From an uncultured Sphingobium sp. (GTDB taxonomy: Bacteria; Pseudomonadota; Alphaproteobacteria; Sphingomonadales; Sphingomonadaceae), in NCBI GenBank assembly GCA_913773715.1, contig CAJYHD010000193.1, positions 1-11,043 on the forward strand: a stretch of 11,043 nt of DNA, read 5' to 3'. Below the pieces are notes generated by a model that worked only from the letters and a program-made list of their open reading frames with translations, was not told the DNA's origin and searched no databases. Made by a program: the position numbers and the translations under genes. Numbering within the stretch: the stretch's first letter is position 1; the number at the start of each line of letters is the position of its first letter. Shown here piece by piece: positions 1 to 11,043 of this stretch.

Positions 1-90
1 CAGTACATCAACGGCTTCTACAATTCCCGCCGACGCCATTCATATCTGGGCGGCATCAGCCCGCTCGCCTTTGAGGCCAAGGTAGCATAA
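1..90 (+). CDS. IS3-family transposase (OrfB), C-terminal end only
   Basis: Frame 1 is open from the first base and ends in TAA at 88-90, giving 29 residues. They contain [20 protein letters not shown], the hallmark C-terminus of the DDE (rve) integrase domain of IS3-family OrfB transposases. In full-length relatives the catalytic DDE residues lie upstream of this stretch, so none is visible here. The protein would catalyse copy-out/paste-in transposition of the element. The IS right end probably lies about 30 nt downstream, inside dnaE2, so this copy broke that gene. The subgroup and whether the element is complete cannot be judged from this fragment. Confidence 0.85.
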
Positions 91-1399
91 TGAGATAGGT
101 GACCGGCACAAAACCGTTACAAGTCCAGGCCTTGCCGACCTCCGCAACGGCACCGCGCGTGCGATAGCGGGTGACGACCGCGGTCAGCGCCGAGCGGTCG
201 CGACCGTAGGTCTCGTAGATCCACTGGATGATTTCCTCGCGCCGCTCATGCTCGAAGTCTACGTCGATGTCGGGCGGCTCCCGGCGCTCGCCCGACACGA
301 ACCGCTCGAACAACAGCTCATGCTGGATCGGGTCGATCGAGGTGACGCCAAGCAGATAGCAGACGCAGCTGTTGGCGGCCGATCCGCGCCCCTGGCACAG
401 GATTCCGCGCCTTCGGCTCTCCGCGACGATCGAATTGACGGTCAGGAAATAGGGCGCGTAGCCGAGCTGGCCGATCAGGGTCAGCTCATGATCGATCTGG
501 TCACGATACCGCTGCGGGATGCCATCGGGGAATTTGACCGTTGCCGCTTCCTCGGTCAGCGCGACCAAGACTTCCTGCGCGGTCCGGCCTTCGATCACCT
601 GCTCGTAGGGATACTGATACTGGATCTCTCCGAGGTCGAACGTGCATTGCGTGGCGATGTCGGCGCTTGCCTGGATCGCAGCTGGAAAAGCTGCGAAGCG
701 ACGTTCCATCTCCGCCGGTGATTTAAGATCGCGGTCCATGAACCGTTCGCGGCGGAAGCCGAGTTCGTCAATCGTGCACTTCTCGCGGATCGCGCTCACG
801 ACGTTTTGCAGAGGTCGCCGCTCTGGGCTGTGGTAGAGGATATCGCCGGTGGCGACGCTGCGAACCCTGGCTCCGCGCGCCATGGCATCGAGCCGGTGCA
901 GCCGCTCGGCATCGTCGGGACGCCGTCGCAGCGACAGCGCGCAGAAGCCGCGCCCAACGAATATCTCGCGCAGGTCACGCAGATGGGCGGCCGTTATCTC
1001 GTCGGGCATGTCCGGCAACAGGATGCCGATCATGTCGTCGGCATGGGCAGCGACGTCGGCCCATTCGAGAATGCACTTGCCCTTGCCGCCGCGCCCCTTG
1101 CCGATCGACAGGAGCCTCGTGAGCCGCGACCAGGCCGGACGGGTTCGCGGATAGAGCAGCAGAGCGCGTCCGTCGGTCAGTTCGACACGCGAGCCCGCAA
1201 TCATGCGGACGCCCGTCGCTTTCTGGCCATCCCATCCGCGAACGACCCCCGCGACCGTATTCCAGTCGGCAAGGCCCATCGCGCGGTGACCGAGCAGCGC
1301 GGCGGCCGCGAACAGTTCTTCCGGCGAAGACGCGCCGCGCAGGAACGAGAAATGGCTCGCGACCTGAAGCTCGACATAGGTCGTCGGGGGCAGCGCCAT
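56..1399 (-). pseudogene. dnaE2: dnaE2 (imuC) error-prone DNA polymerase, truncated by IS
   Basis: DnaE2 is the polymerase of the ImuA-ImuB-DnaE2 mutasome, a C-family translesion enzyme (usually about 1,080 aa) induced by DNA damage. Here only the N-terminal ~426 residues are native: a PHP domain ([21 protein letters not shown], from about residue 8), then the start of the polymerase core with QGRGSAANS (336-344) and PPDIDVDF (375-382), holding the first two catalytic Asp (377, 379). After VGKAWT (about residue 426) the frame runs into the IS and stops at 56-58, adding about 21 foreign residues. The third catalytic Asp, fingers, beta-clamp-binding and OB regions are absent, so polymerase activity should be lost. 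The ATG at 1399 overlaps the imuB stop as TGATG, implying translational coupling; a longer in-frame extension to 1552 lies inside imuB and does not resemble DnaE2. The remaining part may lie beyond the IS, outside the window. Confidence 0.9.
91..121. mobile_element. Probable right terminus (IRR) of the IS3-family element
   Basis: After the transposase stop, sequence unrelated to dnaE2 continues to about 121 and then dnaE2 coding sequence begins. Read inward from the junction on the minus strand it starts TGTAACGGTTTTGTGCCGG. The TG start (CA at the outer end) fits IS3-family termini. The boundary is inferred from where the DnaE2 reading loses family similarity (around Gly-Lys-Ala, codons 422-424) and from the TG/CA rule. 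The left inverted repeat and the target duplication lie outside the window, so the exact base is uncertain by a few nucleotides. Confidence 0.5.
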
Positions 1400-3210
1400 C
1401 AGCCGAACATCCCGTGCATGTACCACGAAAGATCGCCGGTGGATTCCTCGACACCGTCGCCACGGCGGAACAGCCAGAAGCGAGCACCGCCCTCGGCCTC
1501 GACCCGAAAATAGTCGCGCACGGCCCACATCTCGCGGGCGTTGCGCCACCACTCGCCATGGACGCGCTCCGGGCCGTCGCCGGCGACAACGCGATAGCTC
1601 TGTCGCCGCCAGATGAACCGGCGCGGCGGATGGTCGGGCAACAGCGCGATCACGTTGGACAGGGGTTCAGGCCGCTTGAGCAGGCACACCGGACGCTTCC
1701 ACCCCGGCCAGCCCTTGGTCGCCGCGAGCGGGGCTACTCGCCGCATCGCACGCTCGGGCACGTCGCTCTCCTGCGCGGAAACGCGAAACAGCGCCGACGC
1801 ACCGGCTCGCGTGCCAAGCTGGTCTATCAGCGGTGCGAGGTCGCGCGCCTTCCCCGAGGTTTCCAGCAGTGCGCCGGCTGCCTGCGCGCCGAGCGGTTCG
1901 TGATGCGGAACCGCGAGGTGCATTGCCTCGACGCCAAGACCGGGATCGAGTTTGGACATCTTCAGCGCAAACATACGCTTGAGGTGGCGATCGTCGCGGG
2001 TCGCGCGCGAAGCGCCGACGCCGAGGCGCTGTGCCTCGCCATCGACACGGTCGGCGGTGAGCAGGACCGTGCGCGCGCCGAGGCCACGCGCGCGCAGCTC
2101 GATAACCATGTCATCGACGAGGTCGGCGATCACCTGCGCGATGCTCTCGGGCGTGCCGATCGGTTCGAGCAGGCGACGCGTGACGATCGGCACATCGGTC
2201 GGCACGACGGGAATGATCGGCTCGGCCGTCAGCCCCCGTGCCTGGTCCAGTCGCTCTACCGTGCGCAGACCGAGGCGACGCGCGAGCGGACCGCGCGGCA
2301 TCGGATAGAGATCGGCGATCCGCTCCAGCCCGAACCGTGCCGCCGCGACCAGCGCGTCGGGTTCGAGCCGAAGCGCGGAAAGCGGCAGGTCAGCGATCGC
2401 CTGCGCTTCATCACCGCTGCCGAGCAGCACGATCGGATCGCGACCGTATCGGGCGAGCGCGTGCGCCGCGCCGGGCGTGCCGGCGACGGCGATCCGCGCG
2501 GTAAAGCCGAGCCGCTTCAGGAAGGCCAGCAGCCGGCGGCAGAAGCGATCCTCGCCGCCGAACAGATGCGTCGTACCGGTGAGGTCGAACCATAGCCCGT
2601 CCGGACCGGAGACGCTGGCGGTCGGCGTCCATTGGCGGGCGGCATGGAGGGCTATCCGGTCGAGCCACGCGCGATCAGCCTCGGGTTCGGCATCGCGCAC
2701 ATCGAGATCGGCGACCAAAGCGCGGGCATGCGCGGCGGCCATGCCCGGACGCAGGCCTAATTCGAGCGCCCGGGGACAGGCGGAGGTGATCACATCCTTC
2801 TGGCCGGTACGCGTAATGAGCACGGTCGCCATGCCCCACAGCGTCGCCCAGGTCGGCGCTGCCACCGATGCCGGCGGGTTGCCGTCGTCGGAGCGCATCG
2901 CCCGAAACGGATGCTCGGCATGCTCGCTGCGCCGGCCCATCTCGCGCATGGTCGGGCGCTGGTGTGCCGGCAGGGCATCGATATCTGCTTGTGCCGGGCG
3001 GCGCCCGAGCGCGCCGTCCCTTGCCCAGCGCGCACCGGGACGCCAGCCACCGCCGCGCGGGACGGAGCAGGCGCCCGGATCATCGTCGATCGGGTCTTCG
3101 AAGCGCGGCCCGGCCGCCGTTCGCCCGTCAGGCGGCGTGGCTTGCCGCTCGTTCCTGCGCAGCCGTTCGATCGGCAGCTGCGGCAGGAAGAGCGAGGCGA
3201 CCCGTTGCAT
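1399..3210 (-). CDS. imuB: ImuB, inactive Y-family polymerase-like mutasome hub
   Basis: This is a 603-aa Y-family-like protein. In known systems ImuB does not polymerise; it bridges ImuA, DnaE2 and the beta clamp. The N-terminus [19 protein letters not shown] matches the family start and has no catalytic Asp where active Y-family enzymes have one. [12 protein letters not shown] (201-212) replaces the SIDEAYLDVT motif, so the Asp-Glu pair is also missing. [21 protein letters not shown] and the C-terminal WYMHGMFG are family signatures. Residues about 20-120 form a Pro/Arg/Gly-rich insert with [21 protein letters not shown], which I associate with sphingomonad ImuB. I chose ATG 3210 over the in-frame ATG at 3246 because the shorter form matches the family. 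It overlaps the imuA end by 83 nt and its stop overlaps the dnaE2 start. Confidence 0.92.
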
Positions 3211-3904
3211 CGCACGCCTCCAGTTCGAGGGAAAAGGGATCGCCATTGCGCTGGCGGACGAGTTCGACCTGCCAGCGGGGCCGCCCGACGCCCGGCCAGG
3301 GCAGTCGCTCAGAGGCCGTGCAGCCGATCCGCCAGCGCGTCATTGCCGACGACGGCGTGGACAGCGGACAGCGATCGCGCGAACGGCGACTGCGATAGAG
3401 CAGCATCGGCGTCCGGCCGTCGGATGCCGCGAGCTGGAGCCGGCGGGTGGCAGTCATGTCGGCGACCTTCACCTCGGCGATCACGCAGGCGAGCGAACCG
3501 TCGCGCAGCCCATCCTCGGCCATGGCGAGCACTTCCACGTCCTTGCGACCCTGCGCGTAGAGCACCTTGTCAGGGCCTAGCCCGACCTGTTCGAGGCCTG
3601 GCGCATAGAGGTCGAAGACGGTGACGGCCCACAGCACGGTGAAACCGGGCTGGTCGGCAAACCGCGCAGCGATCCCCGCCATGAACAGGCGGGCGGCCGC
3701 GTCGTCATTGAGGCTGGCAGAGCCAGCAGCGATCTCATGCAATCCGCCGCTGTCGAGACCGTGATCGGCAAGCCGCGCGTCGATCTCAGGCAGACCGAAG
3801 CCAAGCGCGCTACCCCGCGTCGCGCGGGCAGCCGCCATCTCGGCGCGAAGCGCGGCGAGCATCTCGGCTGAAGGTCGAGGCATGGTGGACAGAGGTGCGG
3901 GCAT
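3128..3904 (-). CDS. imuA: ImuA, RecA-like SOS mutagenesis protein
   Basis: This is a 258-aa RecA/SulA-related protein, the first gene of the imuA-imuB-dnaE2 operon, which supports damage-induced mutagenesis. FGLPEIDARLADHGLDSGGL with the following HEIA (about 36-58) and TRRLQLAA with the MLLYR that follows it (153-171) are ImuA signatures. Where RecA has its Walker A Lys/Thr loop, this protein has AAGSASLNDDAAARLF with no GKT/GKS, so ATP binding is doubtful, as in other ImuA proteins. The last 28 codons are also read in another frame as the start of imuB. ATG 3904 places the LexA box 20 nt upstream; ATG 3883 (MPRPSAEML) is a reasonable alternative, and neither has a convincing Shine-Dalgarno sequence. 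The gene appears intact. Confidence 0.92.
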   Translation of the reverse strand: MPAPLSTMPRPSAEMLAALRAEMAAARATRGSALGFGLPEIDARLADHGLDSGGLHEIAAGSASLNDDAAARLFMAGIAARFADQPGFTVLWAVTVFDLYAPGLEQVGLGPDKVLYAQGRKDVEVLAMAEDGLRDGSLACVIAEVKVADMTATRRLQLAASDGRTPMLLYRSRRSRDRCPLSTPSSAMTRWRIGCTASERLPWPGVGRPRWQVELVRQRNGDPFSLELEACDATGRLALPAAAADRTAAQERAASHAA

Positions 3905-3985
3905 CGGTCAGCATCGACTCACTTGTTCCCTATATGTTCCGATGAGTGATGCCGGTTCGTCAAGCGGCTTGCGATGACAGGATCG
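3905..3985 (-). promoter_or_regulatory. 81-nt spacer between SRAP and imuA
   Basis: This spacer holds the LexA box and presumed imuA promoter. I see no convincing intrinsic terminator for the upstream SRAP gene: only 4-bp stems such as CAAG-CCG-CTTG, without a T tract. SRAP transcripts may therefore read through into imuA in addition to imuA's own promoter. Confidence 0.5.
3925..3939. promoter_or_regulatory. LexA operator (SOS box) of imuA-imuB-dnaE2
   Basis: The sequence is GTTCCCTATATGTTC, an exact GTTC-N7-GTTC direct repeat (GAAC-N7-GAAC on the minus strand), the established LexA operator of alphaproteobacteria. It sits 20 nt upstream of the imuA ATG. A TTGACG hexamer on the minus strand (3963-3958) could be the -35 element, which would put a weak -10 (GAACAT, 3939-3934) inside the operator. 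LexA binding would then occlude the promoter. Confidence 0.9.
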
Positions 3986-4648
3986 TCAGAGCGTGAGCGT
4001 GGCCTGCTCGGGCTCATTTTTCGGCGGCGGCCAGACTTGGGTAACAGTGAGCATTCCGGCGGGCAGATATTTGAGGATGTCCTCTGCGGGCACCTCGGGA
4101 TTGAGCCAGTCCGCCCATTGATTGCGGGTGAGCGGAATGATCTGGCGATGGTGATAGGGCTTTATGTCGTCACCGGCATCCATGGTCAGCAGCGAGAAGG
4201 CTTCGCCGACCTTGGGATCATTCTGCCAGATGCCCGCCATGCAGAACCAGCGATGGTCCTTCATCTCGAACAGCCATTTGTCGAGCCGCTTGTCTTTCGG
4301 ACGCGGCACGGCCGGATCGGTGAACTCGTAGAAGCCGTCGCACAGGACGAGGCAGCGGTTGACGCTGAGGTCGGGCGGCTTGCCGCCGAATCCCTCGCTG
4401 CGCAAATTATAGACCGGCCCCTTCTTGCCGGGCCAACTCCAACGACGATTCACCAATTCGCCGATAGCGCGGTAATTGCCCGGTGGTCGCTCGACTGCAC
4501 GCACTATCGGAGCCGTGTCGGTCATCCGGATGTCAGCACGCGGATTATCGTCGAGCGCGCCCTCAGGCGTCTCGATATTGATTTCGAGATCGTCGAAATC
4601 CTCCATGATCGAGGCGATCTCGACCTCAAGGCGATAATCGTTGCACAT
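3986..4648 (-). CDS. SRAP (YedK/HMCES-type) abasic-site DNA-protein crosslinking protein
   Basis: This 220-aa SOS response-associated peptidase family protein starts MCNDY. Once the initiator Met is removed, Cys2 becomes the N-terminal nucleophile that forms a stable thiazolidine crosslink with abasic sites in single-stranded DNA, shielding them. The family's supporting residues are visible: Asn81 in VYNLRSEG, Glu108 in CDGFYEF, and His166 in PYHHRQIIPL (the HDRMP-equivalent). AGIWQ and FSLLTMDA also match the family. The catalytic set is complete, so it should be active. Its start is 38 nt from a LexA box shared with the divergent paralogue, and the mutagenesis operon follows on the same strand, fitting the family's SOS association. 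I leave the symbol blank because orthology to E. coli yedK is not shown. Confidence 0.92.
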   Translation of the reverse strand: MCNDYRLEVEIASIMEDFDDLEINIETPEGALDDNPRADIRMTDTAPIVRAVERPPGNYRAIGELVNRRWSWPGKKGPVYNLRSEGFGGKPPDLSVNRCLVLCDGFYEFTDPAVPRPKDKRLDKWLFEMKDHRWFCMAGIWQNDPKVGEAFSLLTMDAGDDIKPYHHRQIIPLTRNQWADWLNPEVPAEDILKYLPAGMLTVTQVWPPPKNEPEQATLTL

Positions 4649-4671
4649 CCGCCGGGTCTCGATCCCGAACC

Positions 4672-4700
4672 TTGCGATCCGACGATGTTCCAGTTATGTT
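4672..4700 (+). promoter_or_regulatory. Predicted sigma70-type promoter reading into SRAP-like gene and defence operon
   Basis: TTGCGA (4672-4677, 4 of 6 to consensus), a 17-nt spacer, then TATGTT (4695-4700, 4 of 6). Expected transcription start is about 4706-4708, at or beside the A of the ATG at 4708, which predicts a leaderless or nearly leaderless mRNA. The LexA box covers the second half of the spacer, the whole -10 and one base beyond it. Assignment is by eye only. Confidence 0.5.
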
Positions 4701-4701
4701 C
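4687..4701. promoter_or_regulatory. LexA operator in the divergent SRAP intergenic region
   Basis: The sequence is GTTCCAGTTATGTTC, a second exact GTTC-N7-GTTC SOS box. It lies 38 nt upstream of the minus-strand SRAP ATG and only 6 nt upstream of the plus-strand SRAP-like ATG. It overlaps the spacer and -10 of the plus-strand promoter I can draw, so LexA would be expected to repress that direction; repression of the minus-strand gene is also likely. Confidence 0.9.
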
Positions 4702-4707
4702 TCAGCA

Positions 4708-5241
4708 ATGAGCGCCACCGCAACCCCGTTCGACTCGGATGCGGCGGAGGGCATCCTTCGCCAGATCATTCGATACAAACCCGATGGCTCGGGCAAGAAG
4801 GAACTCGTCAACGCGCACTGGGGGATTAACCCCAGGTTTAGTGACGGGATCGAGTATCGTTTTGTGCGATCGGAAGGAAAAACTTTCCCTTCGCACCGAT
4901 GTCTGATCCCGGCCTCTGAATTCCGAATGAAGGTAGGGTCGAAGGAATATCGCGTCACGCTGGATGACGGCAACTTTTTCTATCTTGCCGGCGTGTGGGA
5001 GCCGGCGATGGCGGGCTGGCCTTTGTCATTCAAGATTATAACAGTGCATGCGGGCGCCGATGTGTCCGACTATCAGGAACGGCACGGCGGAATAATTCTC
5101 CGGCGCCAGGTGATGCAATGGCTCGATGGGACCGTGCCGGAATCCGACCTGCTGATAACGCCGCCTGCCCATATATTTTTCGTGGAAGAGATTGAGAGTA
5201 AATCGACGCGACAGAGAAGCTATTTTGGGTTCCGGCAGTAA
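4708..5241 (+). CDS. Degenerate SRAP-like paralogue lacking catalytic residues
   Basis: This 177-aa protein aligns by eye with the middle and C-terminal parts of the SRAP fold: AHWGINPRF (36-44), VRSEGKTF (53-60), HRCLIPASEF (63-72), YLAGVWEP (92-99), FKIITVHAGAD (108-118) and GGIILRRQVMQWL (127-139). It has no Met-Cys N-terminus. The NxR Asn position reads FVRSE, GFYEW is shortened to SEFRM, and HDRMP reads QERHG, so crosslinking seems impossible. A DNA-binding, regulatory or scaffolding role is only an inference. I chose ATG 4708 because upstream in-frame starts (TTG 4672, ATG 4696) fall within the promoter and operator; no Shine-Dalgarno is possible if transcription starts at 4707-4708. 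It ends 23 nt before the desulfurase on the same strand, so it is probably the first gene of that operon. Confidence 0.75.
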   Translation: MSATATPFDSDAAEGILRQIIRYKPDGSGKKELVNAHWGINPRFSDGIEYRFVRSEGKTFPSHRCLIPASEFRMKVGSKEYRVTLDDGNFFYLAGVWEPAMAGWPLSFKIITVHAGADVSDYQERHGGIILRRQVMQWLDGTVPESDLLITPPAHIFFVEEIESKSTRQRSYFGFRQ

Positions 5242-5253
5242 GCGAGCAGCGCT

Positions 5254-5257
5254 AGGA
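5254..5257 (+). promoter_or_regulatory. Ribosome binding site of the cysteine desulfurase
   Basis: AGGA lies 7 nt before the ATG at 5265, inside the 23-nt gap after the SRAP-like stop. It supports this start. The gap is too short for a terminator. Confidence 0.6.
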
Positions 5258-5264
5258 ACAAGCG

Positions 5265-6455
5265 ATGAACGCGCGTGAAGCACTGCACATCCCCCCGGTC
5301 TACCTTGATGGGTTCGCTACACTGCCGCTTGCGCCCGAAGCTCGAGCGGCCATGGTCGCGGTTTGGGACATTCCCGGAAGCGCAGGTTCGCCGAACCGAG
5401 CGGGCGAACATGCAGCCGATATCATCGCCGGCGGCCGGGCGCGCGTTGCCGATCTCATCGGAGCGGCACCGAGCGAGATCATCTTCACCTCCGGCGCGAC
5501 GGAAGCAAACAATCTCGCTTTGATCGGCGTCGCTGCAGCATTGGTTGACGAGCGGCCAGATCGGCGGCGCCTCGTCGTTTCCGCCGTCGAACATAAAGCG
5601 GTAATCGAACCTGCGGAGCGACTTAAGCGCTTGGGCTTCACGGTGGATTTTGCGCCAGTCGACGGTGAGGGAAGACTAGATCTGGAAGCTTTTGCTCGTT
5701 TGATGGGCGACGATGTCTTGATTGCATCGGTGATGCTCGTGAACAACGAAACGGGCGTCGTACAGCCAGTCCAGGAAGCCGCAAAGCATGCGCATGCCCA
5801 CGGTGCGCTCTTTCACACTGACGCCGCGCAAGGCGCAGGCAAGATCTCCATCGATGTTCTTGACCTGGACATCGATTATCTGAGTCTGTCAGGGCACAAA
5901 TGCTATGGTCCGATGGGTATCGGCGCTCTGTATGTCTCAGCAGTTGCTCCGAAGCCCGACGCGCTCCTTTTCGGCGGCGGCCAGCAGGCGGGAACTCGCC
6001 CAGGAACAGAGCCCGTTGCGCTCATCGCCGGCTTTGGAGCGGCCGCATCTGTGGCAACGGCTCAGCTAAGCGAGGATGCGAAGCACGCGTCCGGACTGAT
6101 TTCCAAATTGCTGTCGGGTCTGAGAGAGCGGCAGGTTCGGCTGGCGCCGGTCAACGGGAATGCCCAAACGGTGCCCGGCGGCATCGCGCTCAGCCTGCCG
6201 GGCGTCGACGCGGACACTTTATGCACGATGGTTGCTCGTCGCCTTTCACTGTCCACGGGCTCCGCATGCACGTCAGGGCAGATAAAAATCTCGCATGTCC
6301 TTGAAGCTATTGGACTTTCCGATAAGGAGGCGCGATCGGTAATCCGGATATTCTGCAACCGGTACACCACGGCTGTGGAAATCGACACGGCAATCGACGC
6401 GATTACGGATGCGATTGAGCGTTCTCACCTTGCTACTGGAGACGTTCACCAGTAG
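5265..6455 (+). CDS. dndA: Cysteine desulfurase, DndA/IscS-NifS family
   Basis: This 396-aa PLP-dependent class V aminotransferase-fold enzyme takes sulfur from L-cysteine as a persulfide on an active-site Cys and hands it to a partner. Visible residues are TSGATEANN (75-83) for PLP phosphate, His110 (AVEHK), Asn161 (NNETG), Asp186 (HTDAAQ), Lys212 in SGHK (PLP Schiff base), the GGGQQAGTRPGT loop (237-248) and the catalytic Cys335 in STGSACTSG. The length is normal and it looks active. Operon position with a PAPS-reductase-like gene argues for a DndA role (sulfur donor for DNA modification) rather than housekeeping IscS: no iscU, iscR or hscA is adjacent. The family assignment is firm; the dndA name rests on context. 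Confidence 0.85.
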   Translation: MNAREALHIPPVYLDGFATLPLAPEARAAMVAVWDIPGSAGSPNRAGEHAADIIAGGRARVADLIGAAPSEIIFTSGATEANNLALIGVAAALVDERPDRRRLVVSAVEHKAVIEPAERLKRLGFTVDFAPVDGEGRLDLEAFARLMGDDVLIASVMLVNNETGVVQPVQEAAKHAHAHGALFHTDAAQGAGKISIDVLDLDIDYLSLSGHKCYGPMGIGALYVSAVAPKPDALLFGGGQQAGTRPGTEPVALIAGFGAAASVATAQLSEDAKHASGLISKLLSGLRERQVRLAPVNGNAQTVPGGIALSLPGVDADTLCTMVARRLSLSTGSACTSGQIKISHVLEAIGLSDKEARSVIRIFCNRYTTAVEIDTAIDAITDAIERSHLATGDVHQ

Positions 6456-6464
6456 TTTTCCCTG

Positions 6465-7388
6465 ATGGCGAGGGATGGTTTAAGACTTGATTCGAAGGTG
6501 CAGTTCGCGGGGCATGAAACATTCCCGCTGCGCCTCCTGTGGCTGAAGAAAGCCTACGACGCGGTGGGGGATGAAGCCCCCATTGGAACATTCCAGGAAC
6601 AAGAGGCAATTGCACGCTTCGGCGTCGGGCGCAATATGGCTGTGTCGATGCGGTATTGGGCAAACGCCTCAGGCTTCTTCAAAGAGGACGAGCGTATCAT
6701 CCGGCCCACGGAACTCGGCCACGCCATCCTCGCAGATGACGGCCTTGATCCATATCTCGAGCAGGCAGCGACGATCTGGCTTGTTCACTGGCATATTGCC
6801 AGTTCGCAGGCGAAAGCGACGACCGCCTATTATGCCTTCAATGTTTTGAATGCGATCGAGTTCGATCCGGCAACCCTGCTCGACGAACTGTTCGGGGTCG
6901 TGTCCGCACGAGGTTGGCGCGCGACGCGTGGGACTTTGAAGCGGGACATCGAGGTTTTCCTGCGCAGCTACGTGCGGAAAGGTGAAACCTTCAGCGAGGA
7001 TGCAGCGGAACCCCTGCTGGCTGAACTAGCGCTCATCCGCGAAGCCCGGCTTGGTGGTTGGTACGAGTTTGTTCGCGGGCCGAAACCGACTCTCCATGAC
7101 GCGGTGTTTGCCTATGCCTTGGGCGCTTTTTGGGAGCGTAGCGGCGGCGCGACGACCATGACGGCCGAGCAAGTCTGCTATTCACCCGGCTCGCCTGGCC
7201 GGGTTTTCAAGCTCGACGAGGACAGCGTCATCACCCGGCTCATGCGCATCGACGATGTCACAGAAGGTGCGTGGCAATGGGTCGATACGGCCGGCTTGCG
7301 CCAGATTCAGCGGAAGGATGAGATCGACACCACGAGCCTGATTCCAGCGGCCTATCCAAACCGCGGCTCTTGGAGGAGCGCAGCGTGA
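6465..7388 (+). CDS. DUF4007 family protein of the sulfur-defence operon
   Basis: This 307-aa protein begins with the DUF4007 hallmark KVQFAGHETFPLRLLWLKKA (11-30), followed by FGVGRNMAVSMRYW (52-65), which looks like a winged-helix recognition segment, and DPYLEQAATIWLVHWHI (95-111). No enzymatic motif, signal peptide or membrane segment is seen. From memory, DUF4007 proteins occur beside PAPS-reductase-like and cysteine desulfurase genes in defence loci; their biochemical role is unknown to me. DNA recognition or transcriptional control, analogous to the position of DndB after DndA, is an inference. ATG 6465 follows the dndA stop by 9 nt without a clear Shine-Dalgarno, suggesting reinitiation. 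The stop overlaps the next start as GTGA. Confidence 0.8.
   Translation: MARDGLRLDSKVQFAGHETFPLRLLWLKKAYDAVGDEAPIGTFQEQEAIARFGVGRNMAVSMRYWANASGFFKEDERIIRPTELGHAILADDGLDPYLEQAATIWLVHWHIASSQAKATTAYYAFNVLNAIEFDPATLLDELFGVVSARGWRATRGTLKRDIEVFLRSYVRKGETFSEDAAEPLLAELALIREARLGGWYEFVRGPKPTLHDAVFAYALGAFWERSGGATTMTAEQVCYSPGSPGRVFKLDEDSVITRLMRIDDVTEGAWQWVDTAGLRQIQRKDEIDTTSLIPAAYPNRGSWRSAA
7372..7378 (+). promoter_or_regulatory. Strong Shine-Dalgarno fixing a GTG start for the ATPase
   Basis: GGAGGAG lies 6 nt before the GTG at 7385. It sits inside the last codons of the DUF4007 gene and decides the ATPase start at 7385 rather than an in-frame TTG at 7370, which precedes the site. Confidence 0.75.
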
Positions 7389-10300
7389 CGTTCCTGGCTT
7401 CCAAAGTTGCGATTGATCGACGGTTCGCGCGTTCTGCGCGCCTAGATGCCGACCTGAATGGTACGCCCCCGCTCGTCGGATATGTCCTGCAGGCGACGGT
7501 TGCGAAGGCACTTACGCTGCTGGCAGACAGCCAGATCGAGAGCCAGCAGGGTGCATTCACGTGGACCGGACCCTATGGTGGCGGGAAGTCCAGCGCCGCG
7601 CTGCTTCTGGCAAACCTTGTCGCTGGCGCCCGCGCTAACCGAAAGATCGCGAGGGACCTCGCTGGCACAGAGCTGACGGAGCTCTATGCCAAGGCATTCC
7701 CCAAGAGTGTTGGGGAGTGGAAGGTCGTGGCCGTGACGGGCGGGCGTGTCCGTTTGCGCGAGGCGATCGCCGACGCTGCCGCCAGCACGTTCGGCTGGGA
7801 CGAGGCCGCAAGGGCAAAGTTCGGATCCACCGATGAGGCTTTGATCACAGCGCTCGTGCCGTCGGGCAAGGCAAATGCCGGAGGCAGACTGCTCATCCTC
7901 GATGAGCTTGGGAAAATGCTCGAGCACGAGGCGCTTGAAGGCGGCGATGTGCATTTGCTGCAAGACCTTGCCGAACGGGCATCTCGCAGCGACGGGCGGC
8001 TGGTCGTCATCGGCATTCTTCATCAGTCTTTCGAACAGTATGCGGCCCGGGCAGCACGGGATGCACGGCAGGAATGGGCCAAGGTCCAAGGTCGCTATCA
8101 GGATATCGCTTTTCTCAGCGGTGCGGACGAAACCGTGGCGCTGCTTGGCCGAGCGATAGCGAGCGAGCCGCCTGCATCCGCGCTGGCGGAAGCCGCCAAC
8201 CTTGCAGACGCAATCGCCAAGCGCCGGCCGACCGAGGTGTCCGCGTTGACGCAGGCACTCGCCGAAACATGGCCGCTCAATCCTGTTACCGCACTCCTAC
8301 TCGGGCCGGTTTCGAGAGCCCGCTTTGCCCAGAACGAGCGAAGCGTTTTCGGTTTTCTGAGCTCGGCCGAGCCAGCGGGATTCCAGCAGTTTCTATCGTC
8401 CACGGCAGTGGGTGCCGGCACCTATGACCCGTCGATGCTGTGGGACTATCTCTCTGCCAATTTTGGCATGGCGCTCGCGAGTGGACCAGACGGCAGCCGG
8501 TTCAGCCTCGCATTCGAGGCGATTGAGCGAGCCGGCGCCAAAGGCGGAGCGCAACACGTCGCGCTTACCAAGGCAGCCGCCGTAATCGAGTTCTTCCGGA
8601 ATGGATCTGGACTGGCGCTCGCCGACGATATCTTGGCATCCGCATTACCGGGGATCGCTGAAGATGCCCGAACCGCGGCGATCAAGGATCTCCTCGACTG
8701 GGCGGTCCTGATCCGCCAGCCTCGCCTCGGTGGGTATGCCCTCTTCGCCGGCAGCGATTTCGATCTCGATGATGCGATCGGACGGGCGGTCGCGCCGGTC
8801 GGCAATCAGCAGCTTGAAGACATACCGCAGCGCGTCGGCTTTGGATTTGCGACTGCAAAGCGCCACTATTTTCTCACTGGTGCTCTTCGAACATTCGAGA
8901 TCGCACTTCAGATTGTCGGTTCGGACGACACCGCTGAAGAACTTGCGTCGACGCTCCTTAACCGGCCGAAGCGCGGTAGCGGGCTGCTCGTGCTGACGCT
9001 GTCAGACGGCTCCCTTCAGTCATCGGACGTTGATGCCCTTGCGAAGGCAACCGCCAAGAAGCTCAAGGGCCAAGGCAGGATCGTCGCGATCGGTGCCGCT
9101 GCTGACAGCTTTGCGCTCCGTTCAACCGCGGCCGAGCTGTTGGCGGTCGAACGTGTCATACGCGACCATCCACAGCTCGAAGGAGACCGCATCGCACGGC
9201 GTGAGATCGCAGCGCGGCAATCTCTCTGCGTCGATCAGCTTCATCGCACGCTGGAAGCCTCGCTCGAGACAGCGCGCTGGTTCCTCGCTCCCTCGCCGAG
9301 CAAAGGCCTTCGCGAGCCGCTCGCCATGGTCGCCAGTGCGCTTGCTGATGCTGGCTACCCGTCGGCGCCAATCCTGAAGAGCGAACTCCTCCAGCGCGAC
9401 AAGCCCTCTTCGAATGCCATGGCCGCGCTCCGCGACCTAGCGCACGCGATGGTGAACCGTTTCGCCGAGCTGGACCTCGGCATTACGGGTTATCCGGCCG
9501 AACTCGGTCTCTATTTGACGGTGCTCAAACCGTTTGGTCTACACCGACCGTCGGGAGACATCTTCACGTTCGCCGAGCCTGACGAGAGCGAGGAAGGCCT
9601 TTCCCTACGACCAGCGTGGGACGTGATCGATCAGGTTGGGGTCGAGGGGCTCGATACTGTCTACAAACAGTGGGCGCTTCCGCCATTTGGTTTGAAGGGC
9701 GGCGTCATGCCTGTCCTGGCCCTCGCCTACATGCTGGCAATGCGTGACAGCGTAGCGATCTATATCGATGGTGTTTATCAGACAGCGATCGACGATGTCG
9801 TCGTCGATAAGCTTCTGCAAAAGCCGGGCGGCTTCCGCCTACGTCGAATTGACCGCTCGATCCGTGAAACGGCCTTCCTGAGCGGGCTCGCCGAGCGCTT
9901 GGGCGTCGAAGCAAGCGAAGGCTCGCTTCCTGTGGCGGCCGCGCTCTTTCAGCGGTTCGAGGCACTGCCCGTATTCGCGAAGCGGACACAACGGCTGGAC
10001 GAAGATACCCGGACCGTTCGCTCCGTCGTGGTGAAGGCCGAGGATCCCGAAGCGCTCCTGTTCGATGCTCTGCCCGATACCTTCGGCGAAAGATTGACGC
10101 CCGACCTGGTCTACGAGGCGCTCCTGCAATGTGAGGCGGGGTATCCTGGGTTGCTCATCGAGCTTCGCCAGGCACTAGCTCGCGCGCTCGGCGTCGAACT
10201 CGACTCCTTCAGCGGGATTTCGGAGCGGGTCGCTTGTGTTCGCGGTCTCACCAACGATTATGCTTTTGACGCCCTCGCGGATCGAGCAGCCGCTATCGAG

Positions 10301-10690
10301 GATGGCACCGGTGACCTTGAGAGCCTCGTGAGCGTCCTCCTGCATCGCCCGGCACGGAGCTGGTCCGATCGCGACCGTGAAGAGGCGCTTACGGAGATCG
10401 CCCGGTTTGGTCGACGCTTCCGGGAGCTAGAGGCACTCGCGGTTGTGCGGGATCGCCAATCGCATACCGAAGCCCTCGCTCTGGTCGTTGGGCTTGACCC
10501 CAAAACCCCGCCGCTGCTGCGTAGCTTCGTCCTGAACGATAAGGAGAAGAAGGCGGCAGCAAGCATGGCGGACCGCGTCGTCGCTGGTCTTCGGGCAGAC
10601 GATAAAACTGGAAGGCTTCAGCTAGCAGCGCTTGCCCGAGCGGTTGCGATGCTCGCGGCTGAGACAGATACTGAGGTGGAAGCAGCATGA
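7385..10690 (+). CDS. Large P-loop ATPase (BrxC/PglY-like) of the sulfur-defence operon
   Basis: This 1,101-aa ATP-binding protein has Walker A GPYGGGKSS (about 62-70, Lys68) and Walker B LLILDELGK (about 169-177, Asp173/Glu174), then QDLAERASRSDGRLVVIGIL, resembling a sensor segment of AAA+-type ATPases. The remaining roughly 850 residues hold no motif I can name; they are soluble-looking, without membrane segments. N-terminal organisation and size resemble the large BrxC/PglY ATPases of BREX, but not the SMC-like coiled-coil DndD (about 660 aa). It probably powers DNA engagement or translocation for the modification/defence complex; substrate and partners are inferred from the operon. Start GTG 7385 overlaps the DUF4007 stop and has a strong Shine-Dalgarno. 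Its stop overlaps the next ATG. Subfamily naming is uncertain. Confidence 0.75.
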   Translation: MTFLASKVAIDRRFARSARLDADLNGTPPLVGYVLQATVAKALTLLADSQIESQQGAFTWTGPYGGGKSSAALLLANLVAGARANRKIARDLAGTELTELYAKAFPKSVGEWKVVAVTGGRVRLREAIADAAASTFGWDEAARAKFGSTDEALITALVPSGKANAGGRLLILDELGKMLEHEALEGGDVHLLQDLAERASRSDGRLVVIGILHQSFEQYAARAARDARQEWAKVQGRYQDIAFLSGADETVALLGRAIASEPPASALAEAANLADAIAKRRPTEVSALTQALAETWPLNPVTALLLGPVSRARFAQNERSVFGFLSSAEPAGFQQFLSSTAVGAGTYDPSMLWDYLSANFGMALASGPDGSRFSLAFEAIERAGAKGGAQHVALTKAAAVIEFFRNGSGLALADDILASALPGIAEDARTAAIKDLLDWAVLIRQPRLGGYALFAGSDFDLDDAIGRAVAPVGNQQLEDIPQRVGFGFATAKRHYFLTGALRTFEIALQIVGSDDTAEELASTLLNRPKRGSGLLVLTLSDGSLQSSDVDALAKATAKKLKGQGRIVAIGAAADSFALRSTAAELLAVERVIRDHPQLEGDRIARREIAARQSLCVDQLHRTLEASLETARWFLAPSPSKGLREPLAMVASALADAGYPSAPILKSELLQRDKPSSNAMAALRDLAHAMVNRFAELDLGITGYPAELGLYLTVLKPFGLHRPSGDIFTFAEPDESEEGLSLRPAWDVIDQVGVEGLDTVYKQWALPPFGLKGGVMPVLALAYMLAMRDSVAIYIDGVYQTAIDDVVVDKLLQKPGGFRLRRIDRSIRETAFLSGLAERLGVEASEGSLPVAAALFQRFEALPVFAKRTQRLDEDTRTVRSVVVKAEDPEALLFDALPDTFGERLTPDLVYEALLQCEAGYPGLLIELRQALARALGVELDSFSGISERVACVRGLTNDYAFDALADRAAAIEDGTGDLESLVSVLLHRPARSWSDRDREEALTEIARFGRRFRELEALAVVRDRQSHTEALALVVGLDPKTPPLLRSFVLNDKEKKAAASMADRVVAGLRADDKTGRLQLAALARAVAMLAAETDTEVEAA

Positions 10691-11043
10691 CGCACGAGCG
10701 CCATATCCTGGGCCTCTCGGGCGGCCGGGACAGTGCCGCTCTAGCGGTTTACATGCGGCAATATCGGCCAGAGCTTCCTATCGAATATTTCTTCACCGAC
10801 ACGGGCAAGGAGCTGCCCGAAGTTTATAAGTTCCTCGACAAGCTTGAGGGGTTCCTCGGTCGGCCGATCGAGCGGTTGAACCCTGATCGAGACTTTGATT
10901 TCTGGCTCGAAGAATACGGCAATTTTCTCCCATCTCCGCGCACGCGTTGGTGCACGCGTCAGCTTAAACTTCGGCCCCTCGAGCATTGGCTGCGGGAAGA
11001 CCTGGACAGCGGCACGATCGTGCACTCCTACGTTGCTATCAGG
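10687..11043 (+). CDS. PAPS reductase-like PP-loop protein (DndC/BrxP-type), 5' part
   Basis: The first 119 residues are in the window and the gene runs off the right edge. LSGGRDSAAL (10-19) is the PP-loop (SGGxDS) that binds ATP or adenylyl-sulfate nucleotides, with Arg in place of the usual Lys. FFTDTGKELPEVYKF (35-49) and RWCTRQLKLRPLEHWL (86-101) are typical of phosphoadenosine phosphosulfate reductase-family proteins including DndC, which uses sulfur from DndA to form the phosphorothioate bond. ATG overlaps the ATPase stop as ATGA, and GAGG (10673-10676) is a plausible Shine-Dalgarno. With a BrxC-like ATPase next to it, it may instead be the BrxP of BREX type 4. Ordinary sulfate-assimilation CysH is unlikely because no cys genes surround it. 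Confidence 0.85.
   Translation, partial: MTHERHILGLSGGRDSAALAVYMRQYRPELPIEYFFTDTGKELPEVYKFLDKLEGFLGRPIERLNPDRDFDFWLEEYGNFLPSPRTRWCTRQLKLRPLEHWLREDLDSGTIVHSYVAIR

Follow-up and report, generated by a model that had tools for sequence, protein, structure and literature searches.

Two kinds of described locus are closest to the one studied here. The first is the Ssp system of DNA phosphorothioation, an antiphage defense in which sulfur enters the DNA backbone; according to the accessible portions of PMC8092258 and PMC9646914, its effector SspE is inactive and harmless without phosphorothioates and needs the mark to act, whereas the effector SspFGH damages unmodified cells. The second is the SOS-type gene neighborhood in which an SOS response-associated peptidase (SRAP) gene is found with imuA-imuB-dnaE2, as described in the accessible part of PMC3765255. 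We analyzed a stretch of 11,043 nt (the window) from an uncultured Sphingobium sp. (assembly GCA_913773715.1, contig CAJYHD010000193.1, positions 1 to 11,043), whose best plasmid DNA matches were sphingomonads. In this window, an sspABCD cassette directly follows the rightward gene (gene 2) of a divergent SRAP pair, and we put at about 0.64 the probability that read-through from the SRAP promoter places sspABCD under LexA control. The operator, the promoter architecture, the junction, the gene order, and the Ssp identity can be read from the sequence itself; from these we infer that SRAP gene 2 would be co-transcribed with sspABCD and that sspABCD would be induced in the SOS response.

The initial annotation had placed a perfect LexA box over the promoter of the SRAP-like gene, a position that our analysis confirmed to the nucleotide. 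The box, GTTCCAGTTATGTTC, lies at 4687-4701 on the plus strand between the two SRAP genes and matches GTTCN7GTTC exactly. Strict matches to this pattern were found at four sites in the window, against 0.29 expected, a number that 0 of 200 shuffles reached: 3925-3939 on the imuA side, 4687-4701 at the SRAP pair, and 5256-5270 and 6586-6600, both on the minus strand. Only the first two were accepted as predicted operators. The motif appears valid in this family because all 12 related sphingomonad genomes checked, picked mostly for carrying SRAP gene 2, had at least one strict box starting 26 to 71 nt upstream of lexA. An identical motif is given for Caulobacter LexA in the accessible part of PMC12700426. 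We consider 4687-4701 a credible LexA operator.

The box overlaps a predicted promoter of SRAP gene 2 (4672-4700, plus strand), composed of a -35 element TTGCGA (4672-4677), a 17-nt spacer, and a -10 element TATGTT (4695-4700). This architecture was conserved when 24 rows were aligned by the box (window included, some near-identical copies among them, and L071, L087, and L088 left out): TTG[C/A] stood exactly 17 nt ahead of the -10 position, toward gene 2, in 21 of them, and the -10 position was mostly TATGTT. The exceptions were L086, with a spacing of 16 nt, and L070 and L082, which fall outside the pattern used. We set the start of SRAP gene 2 at ATG 4708, the first listed start (TTG 4672) coinciding with the -35 element; the transcript would begin at about the same ATG and hence be nearly leaderless. 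With a GTTCN7GTTC operator of family-valid motif over its promoter, SRAP gene 2 is a predicted member of the LexA regulon, and its control by LexA is well supported at the level of sequence.

Behind SRAP gene 2 lie four genes on the plus strand. sspA (5265-6455), coding for a cysteine desulfurase (PADLOC SspA, 376.3 bits; PF00266), is followed by sspB (6465-7388), coding for a DUF4007 protein (PADLOC SspB, 347.9 bits; PF13182, 267.9 bits), by the ATPase gene sspC (7385-10690; PADLOC SspC, 1123.5 bits, scanned from TTG 7370), and by sspD (10687-11043), whose PAPS-reductase-like product (PADLOC SspD, 201.8 bits, model positions 1-115 of 277) is cut by the contig end after 119 codons. The GTG start of sspC was inferred from the 4-nt overlap with sspB as annotated in relatives. 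The gene order and junctions reported in the initial annotation were reproduced: 23 nt separate the stop of SRAP gene 2 (5241) from the ATG of sspA (5265), 9 nt separate the sspA stop (6455) from the ATG of sspB (6465), and the last two junctions are overlaps, GTGA (7385-7388) between sspB and sspC and ATGA (10687-10690) between sspC and sspD. In line with the same source, the 23-nt gap held no terminator-like site. The operon had been described there as a sulfur-based defense system of Dnd or BREX type; it is a phosphorothioation cassette, but the scores favor Ssp over both names. PADLOC gave 358 bits for DndA versus 376 for SspA, 272 for BrxC versus 1123 for SspC, and 27 for DndC and 24 for BrxP versus 202 for SspD. 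The NCBIfam DndA model (TIGR03235) scored 330 bits against a cut-off of 480, and DndC scored 24 against 290 (partial protein). Among the six proteins scanned, no match was found to DndB, DndD, or DndE, nor to PglZ or BrxL, and we rejected both the Dnd and the BREX assignment. Judged by homology, with SspA, SspB, SspC, and SspD homologs in one predicted operon and only sspD cut by the contig end, the cassette is SspABCD, the single-stranded phosphorothioation module.

The junction between SRAP gene 2 and the incoming ssp DNA was located at 5220-5222, with the boundary at 5220/5221, inside the last codons of gene 2. Similarity to the SRAP-2 family stopped at about codon 5218-5220, and DNA similarity to the ssp locus L133 ran from 5222 to 11040 (77%); of its opening 16 alignment columns, 15 match. 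The protein end told the same story: 105 of 120 listed SRAP-2 proteins (best of 602) end in a Q-x-x-L-x-L-like pattern, and the window protein, ending in QRS-YFGFRQ, is among the 15 of 120 that, read by eye, are off-pattern and resembles none of the remaining 59 tails printed. The ssp-side DNA, just 44 nt of which stand ahead of sspA, encodes the final six residues of the gene 2 protein. The ssp insertion appears to be lineage-specific and to have replaced the SRAP stop and the DNA beyond it. Because the junction leaves only these 44 nt before sspA, read-through from the LexA promoter is favored.

To place the operator in a wider context, we compared 26 other SRAP-pair loci: nine on plasmids (L063-L071), one on a viral-collection contig (L072), and 16 in genomes (L074-L088 and L100, >90 bits). 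The genome loci came from a search of 298 genomes of one family, of which 26 matched at E <= 1e-10 with 30 loci; we left out 13 weaker loci (L089-L099, L101, L102) and also L103, which shows L078 again. The 26 are not all independent, since L064/L068, L065/L075, and L067/L079 are near-identical pairs. A strict box was present upstream of SRAP gene 2 at 25 of the 26. It was found at nine of the 10 plasmid and viral-collection loci, the tenth (L070) having one mismatch, and at all 16 genome loci, where 15 boxes ended -8 to 8 nt before the gene 2 start and that of L087 ended 77 nt before an extrapolated start. ssp was absent from the flanks examined at all 26, which covered about 1.5 kb to either side of the genome loci and 2 to 6 kb downstream of the other ones. 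Since SRAP-pair loci without ssp carry the operator, it did not arise for defense genes and is not tied to ssp; most likely it predates the ssp insertion. The viral-collection locus (IMG/VR contig, 5300-6522) also shows that an SRAP pair with a LexA box is found in such a collection, its gene 2 being 70% identical to that of the window.

The position directly behind SRAP gene 2 was occupied by different genes in different relatives, in some by genes of a repair type. An AlkB-like oxygenase gene follows in L070 (21 nt; gene 2 annotated in two pieces) and L100 (overlap), and an imuA homolog (57% identity by tblastn; Pfam SulA match under the cut-off) follows in L087 after 18 nt. In L081, a frame 37 nt downstream shows similarity to a methylpurine-glycosylase domain, limited to the first third of that domain, and then other similarity. 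At five of the 16 loci checked for downstream genes, no frame in the same direction with >=100 codons followed within 150 nt; at several others the frames were hypothetical only, and four of those submitted to Pfam gave no match. We read this as an exchangeable slot behind a LexA promoter. In the window the slot is occupied by ssp, and it would offer genes a route into the SOS regulon.

According to our model, sspABCD was inserted at the end of the rightward SRAP gene 2, bringing along 44 nt of ssp-side DNA ahead of sspA, and would be transcribed by read-through from the LexA-repressed SRAP promoter. DNA damage would then lead, via the RecA filament and LexA cleavage, to more phosphorothioation, and the rising mark, with damage such as that of phage replication as a trigger, could license an SspE-type effector, if the host has one. 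Several observations weigh against this model. The box spacer is that of an average LexA site (3.7 bits), a score that 1.9% of random spacers also reach. An SRAP gene beside ssp was found at 0 of 76 other ssp loci, in the stretches examined; these comprise 54 genome loci (L001-L054), seven plasmid loci (L055-L061), one viral-collection locus (L073), and another 14 genome loci (L119-L132), of which four were also read at 14-18 kb as L133-L136. A species may be represented twice among the 76 loci. Many of these stretches, those of L119-L132 above all, extend upstream of sspA by no more than a few hundred bases. LexA promoters leak, and induction may matter little; ssp could also have a promoter of its own, within SRAP gene 2 or the 44 nt of ssp-side DNA ahead of sspA. 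In addition, the close relative L133/L138 has an apparently intact SspFGH (SspH 1-1801 continuous at 85%, SspG whole, SspF in an open frame of 622 codons); given the damage that SspFGH is reported to do to unmodified cells, a host of the window that also carries SspFGH would be harmed by tightly repressed sspABCD.

Of the two conservation questions raised in the initial annotation, the box proved widely shared among SRAP-pair loci and the linkage of the SRAP gene to the desulfurase gene did not recur. Because this linkage was not found at the 76 other ssp loci, the arrangement looks like promoter capture in one lineage and not a standing design. The DNA upstream of ssp seems to be often exchanged: an unrelated gene, for a glutamine amidotransferase, ends 9 nt ahead of sspA in L001, and the DNA of the L055 lineage becomes similar to that of other ssp plasmids near sspA. 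Two other ssp loci have SOS mutagenesis genes at some distance, L012 with imuA-imuB-dnaE2 (1059-4560) about 4.3 kb upstream of sspA and L134 with dnaE2 (15453) about 3.6 kb downstream of the sspD match; this proximity may reflect no more than that ssp and these genes both travel as mobile cargo.

We then weighed other explanations. The operator might control the SRAP pair only, with sspABCD transcribed from a promoter of its own, placed within SRAP gene 2 or the last 44 nt ahead of sspA, which we regard as unlikely but worth serious attention. The close match of the first ssp-side columns to L133 could reflect a promoter element, other ssp loci stand behind many different neighbors without SRAP, and an intact SspFGH as in L133/L138 would require steady modification. 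Opposed to this are the tight same-strand spacing and the replacement of the native end of SRAP gene 2, with the DNA after it, by the insertion. A scan of 4600-6600 also returned no promoter-like site, which is weak evidence, as the scan is too strict for the genus and misses the SRAP promoter as well; its two terminator-like sites (4953 and 5001, 1.9 expected by chance) both lie inside SRAP gene 2.

Another explanation, which we consider very improbable, is that the operator serves the leftward SRAP gene 1 only and that there is no promoter in the plus direction. The box does precede the start of SRAP gene 1 by 38 nt, a spacing that is usual for operators, but the conserved TTG[C/A] at 17 nt from the plus-strand -10 position and the closeness of the box to the SRAP gene 2 start at 15 of the 16 genome loci speak for transcription toward gene 2. 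Equally improbable, in our estimate, is an assembly chimera in which an SOS locus was joined to an unrelated ssp locus. The contig is short, with an insertion sequence (IS) fragment at its left end and sspD broken off at its right, and its sharp junction is in no other record retrieved. Against a chimera, a protein search counted two contigs for the window SspA and SRAP-2 (perhaps one assembly present twice), the SRAP frame continues to a clean stop, and GC content is alike on both sides of the junction (0.55-0.61), though none of the three is decisive. Read-through from the LexA-controlled SRAP promoter remains our preferred explanation.

The two minus-strand matches in the window were judged unlikely to be operators. 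The site at 5256-5270, which covers the ribosome-binding site and the ATG-AAC start of sspA, is explained by these elements and was judged coincidental; as an operator it would be a poor candidate, although a slight chance is left. With a 10-spacer matrix, 38% of random spacers equaled its own; with a 27-spacer matrix (one of the two boxes upstream of lexA in L110 left out), the share was 7.7%, and its score with the latter, 1.07 bits, was below 26 of the 27 leave-one-out scores of the training boxes. L001 and L133 keep the GAAC words at the sspA start site, with spacers that score lower still (15% and 30% of random). The site at 6586-6600, whose spacer score is reached by only 3.7% of random spacers, sits in sspB codons (GTFQEQ), and near-identical sites occur inside sspB at many other loci; it is unlikely to be an operator.

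We also surveyed 63 ssp loci, including the window (sspA in line in 30, divergent in 30, not found in three), for boxes upstream of ssp. Five strict boxes were found versus 0.47 expected: two at the start codon of sspA, in the window and in L001, and three in L055, L056, and L057, which form one lineage. Among genome loci added later, L119/L133 had a box of the start-codon type and L120/L134 one with a spacer matched by 78% of random spacers. A general link between LexA and Ssp was rejected, since the boxes, at five of 63 loci, were mostly of the start-codon type or from one lineage.

The L055-L057 lineage consists of conjugative plasmids, Sphingobium xenophagum p1 and p3 and Sphingomonas bisphenolicum pBAR3. 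In these, 198 nt between the divergent sspE (PADLOC SspE, 897 bits) and sspA (3703-3900 in L055) hold GTTCTCTATTCGTTC or GTTCTCTGTTCGTTC, a lexA-type operator by sequence, with TTGATG-17-TACTGT around the box read as a promoter. GTTCTCTGTTCGTTC is one base off the lexA box of L106, and 0.7-0.8% of random spacers score as high as the L055-L057 boxes. The SspFGH arm is damaged on these plasmids, by two distinct lesions: in pBAR3, SspF is cut to its last third near IS6100 while SspG and SspH are whole; in p1, SspF and SspG are full length and SspH is in two frames, unannotated, and the portion of p3 examined shows SspH split in this way too. Since p1 and p3 are from one strain, the two-frame SspH may be a sequencing error. 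The related L058, L060, and L061, which lack such a box, show a continuous SspH match over the part examined. We regard L055-L057 as a candidate independent plasmid lineage that lends some support to the LexA-ssp idea.

The window's own effector lies beyond the contig end, as the contig stops inside sspD. Its nearest ssp relatives differ in this respect: in L001, SspE (768 bits) is encoded behind sspD, whereas L133/L138 has the apparently intact SspFGH. Between sspD and sspH of L133 (14985-17127) there are a protein-kinase gene and a GmrSD_N gene, possibly further effectors. Because SspE is reported to need the mark and SspFGH to attack unmodified self DNA, LexA repression of sspABCD would carry no danger where the effector is SspE or is lacking, and would do harm where it is SspFGH. 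The modification of a restriction system is usually expected to be steady; with an effector such as SspE, regulating the mark could itself be an immune switch. We tentatively propose, while thinking it rather doubtful, that LexA makes modification, and not the nuclease, the damage-induced step, so that SspE would be active only in damaged cells; such SOS-gated arming would have arisen at least twice in sphingomonads (the window and L055-L057) and be tolerated only where SspFGH is absent or broken. If this is true, antiphage DNA-sulfur defense may be armed by DNA damage.

The remainder of the window, on the left, is an SOS locus as judged by its genes: imuA-imuB-dnaE2 plus the divergent SRAP pair around one LexA operator. 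The window is probably an entire contig, since the longest contig that the protein search gave for its SspA and SRAP-2 proteins measures 11,043 bases. An IS3-type element fragment (1 to about 128) forms the left end and breaks off the dnaE2 similarity at about codon 423, so that the mutagenesis module is probably interrupted on this contig. The N-terminal part of dnaE2, imuB (IMS, 42.6 bits), and imuA (NF033429, 54.6 bits, under its cut-off of 150) run from 3904 downwards on the minus strand, with the predicted LexA operator at 3925-3939 (plus strand) upstream of imuA. SRAP gene 1 (3986-4648, minus strand; PF02586, 75.1 bits) keeps Cys2, and its residues MCN, N81, E108, and H166 were invariant in eight of eight sequences. 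Cys2 and the others are presumably the active-site residues.

SRAP gene 2 (4708-5241, plus strand; PF02586, 44.9 bits) is SRAP-like and probably non-catalytic. Aligned to gene 1, it starts after the Cys2 position and keeps E108 but not N81 and H166, and a Cys at position 2 was found in none of the 120 SRAP-2 proteins listed (best 120 of 602, the window's own included); the cysteine of a SRAP peptidase or abasic (AP)-site crosslinker is thus missing. PDB searches with single SRAP proteins found nothing; searches with profiles matched SRAP-type structures, with printed matches that stop short of the N-terminus. The pairing of a Cys2-less paralog with a Cys2-type SRAP gene around one LexA operator was seen in sphingomonads and on Sinorhizobium meliloti pSymA (L071). 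That a probably non-catalytic SRAP is kept so widely suggests a separate role.

Our literature search, which worked mostly from listings and left subscription papers largely outside, brought up no paper describing control of Ssp or Dnd genes by LexA, and the accessible parts of PMC8569181, PMC12345140, PMC10853773, PMC8092258, PMC9646914, and PMC11931770 contain none of LexA or SOS control of phosphorothioation or defense. The LexA-ssp arrangement would be a case of promoter capture in a single lineage, for which there is one independent parallel. That parallel, L055-L057, resembles the window in having a lexA-type operator upstream of sspABCD in a sphingomonad and differs in the placement of the operator between divergent sspE and sspABCD, without an SRAP gene and with different upstream DNA. 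Like the SOS neighborhoods in the accessible part of PMC3765255, the window has imuA, imuB, dnaE2, and SRAP genes together; its slot, however, holds a phosphorothioation cassette, whereas the slot of relatives holds an alkB-like gene or an imuA homolog in some cases and no gene in the same direction in others. Compared with the SspABCD-SspE and SspABCD-SspFGH systems, as described in the accessible portions of PMC8092258 and PMC9646914, the window has the same order of sspA, sspB, sspC, and sspD; its effector falls beyond the contig end, and what sets its cassette apart is its position behind a predicted LexA promoter.

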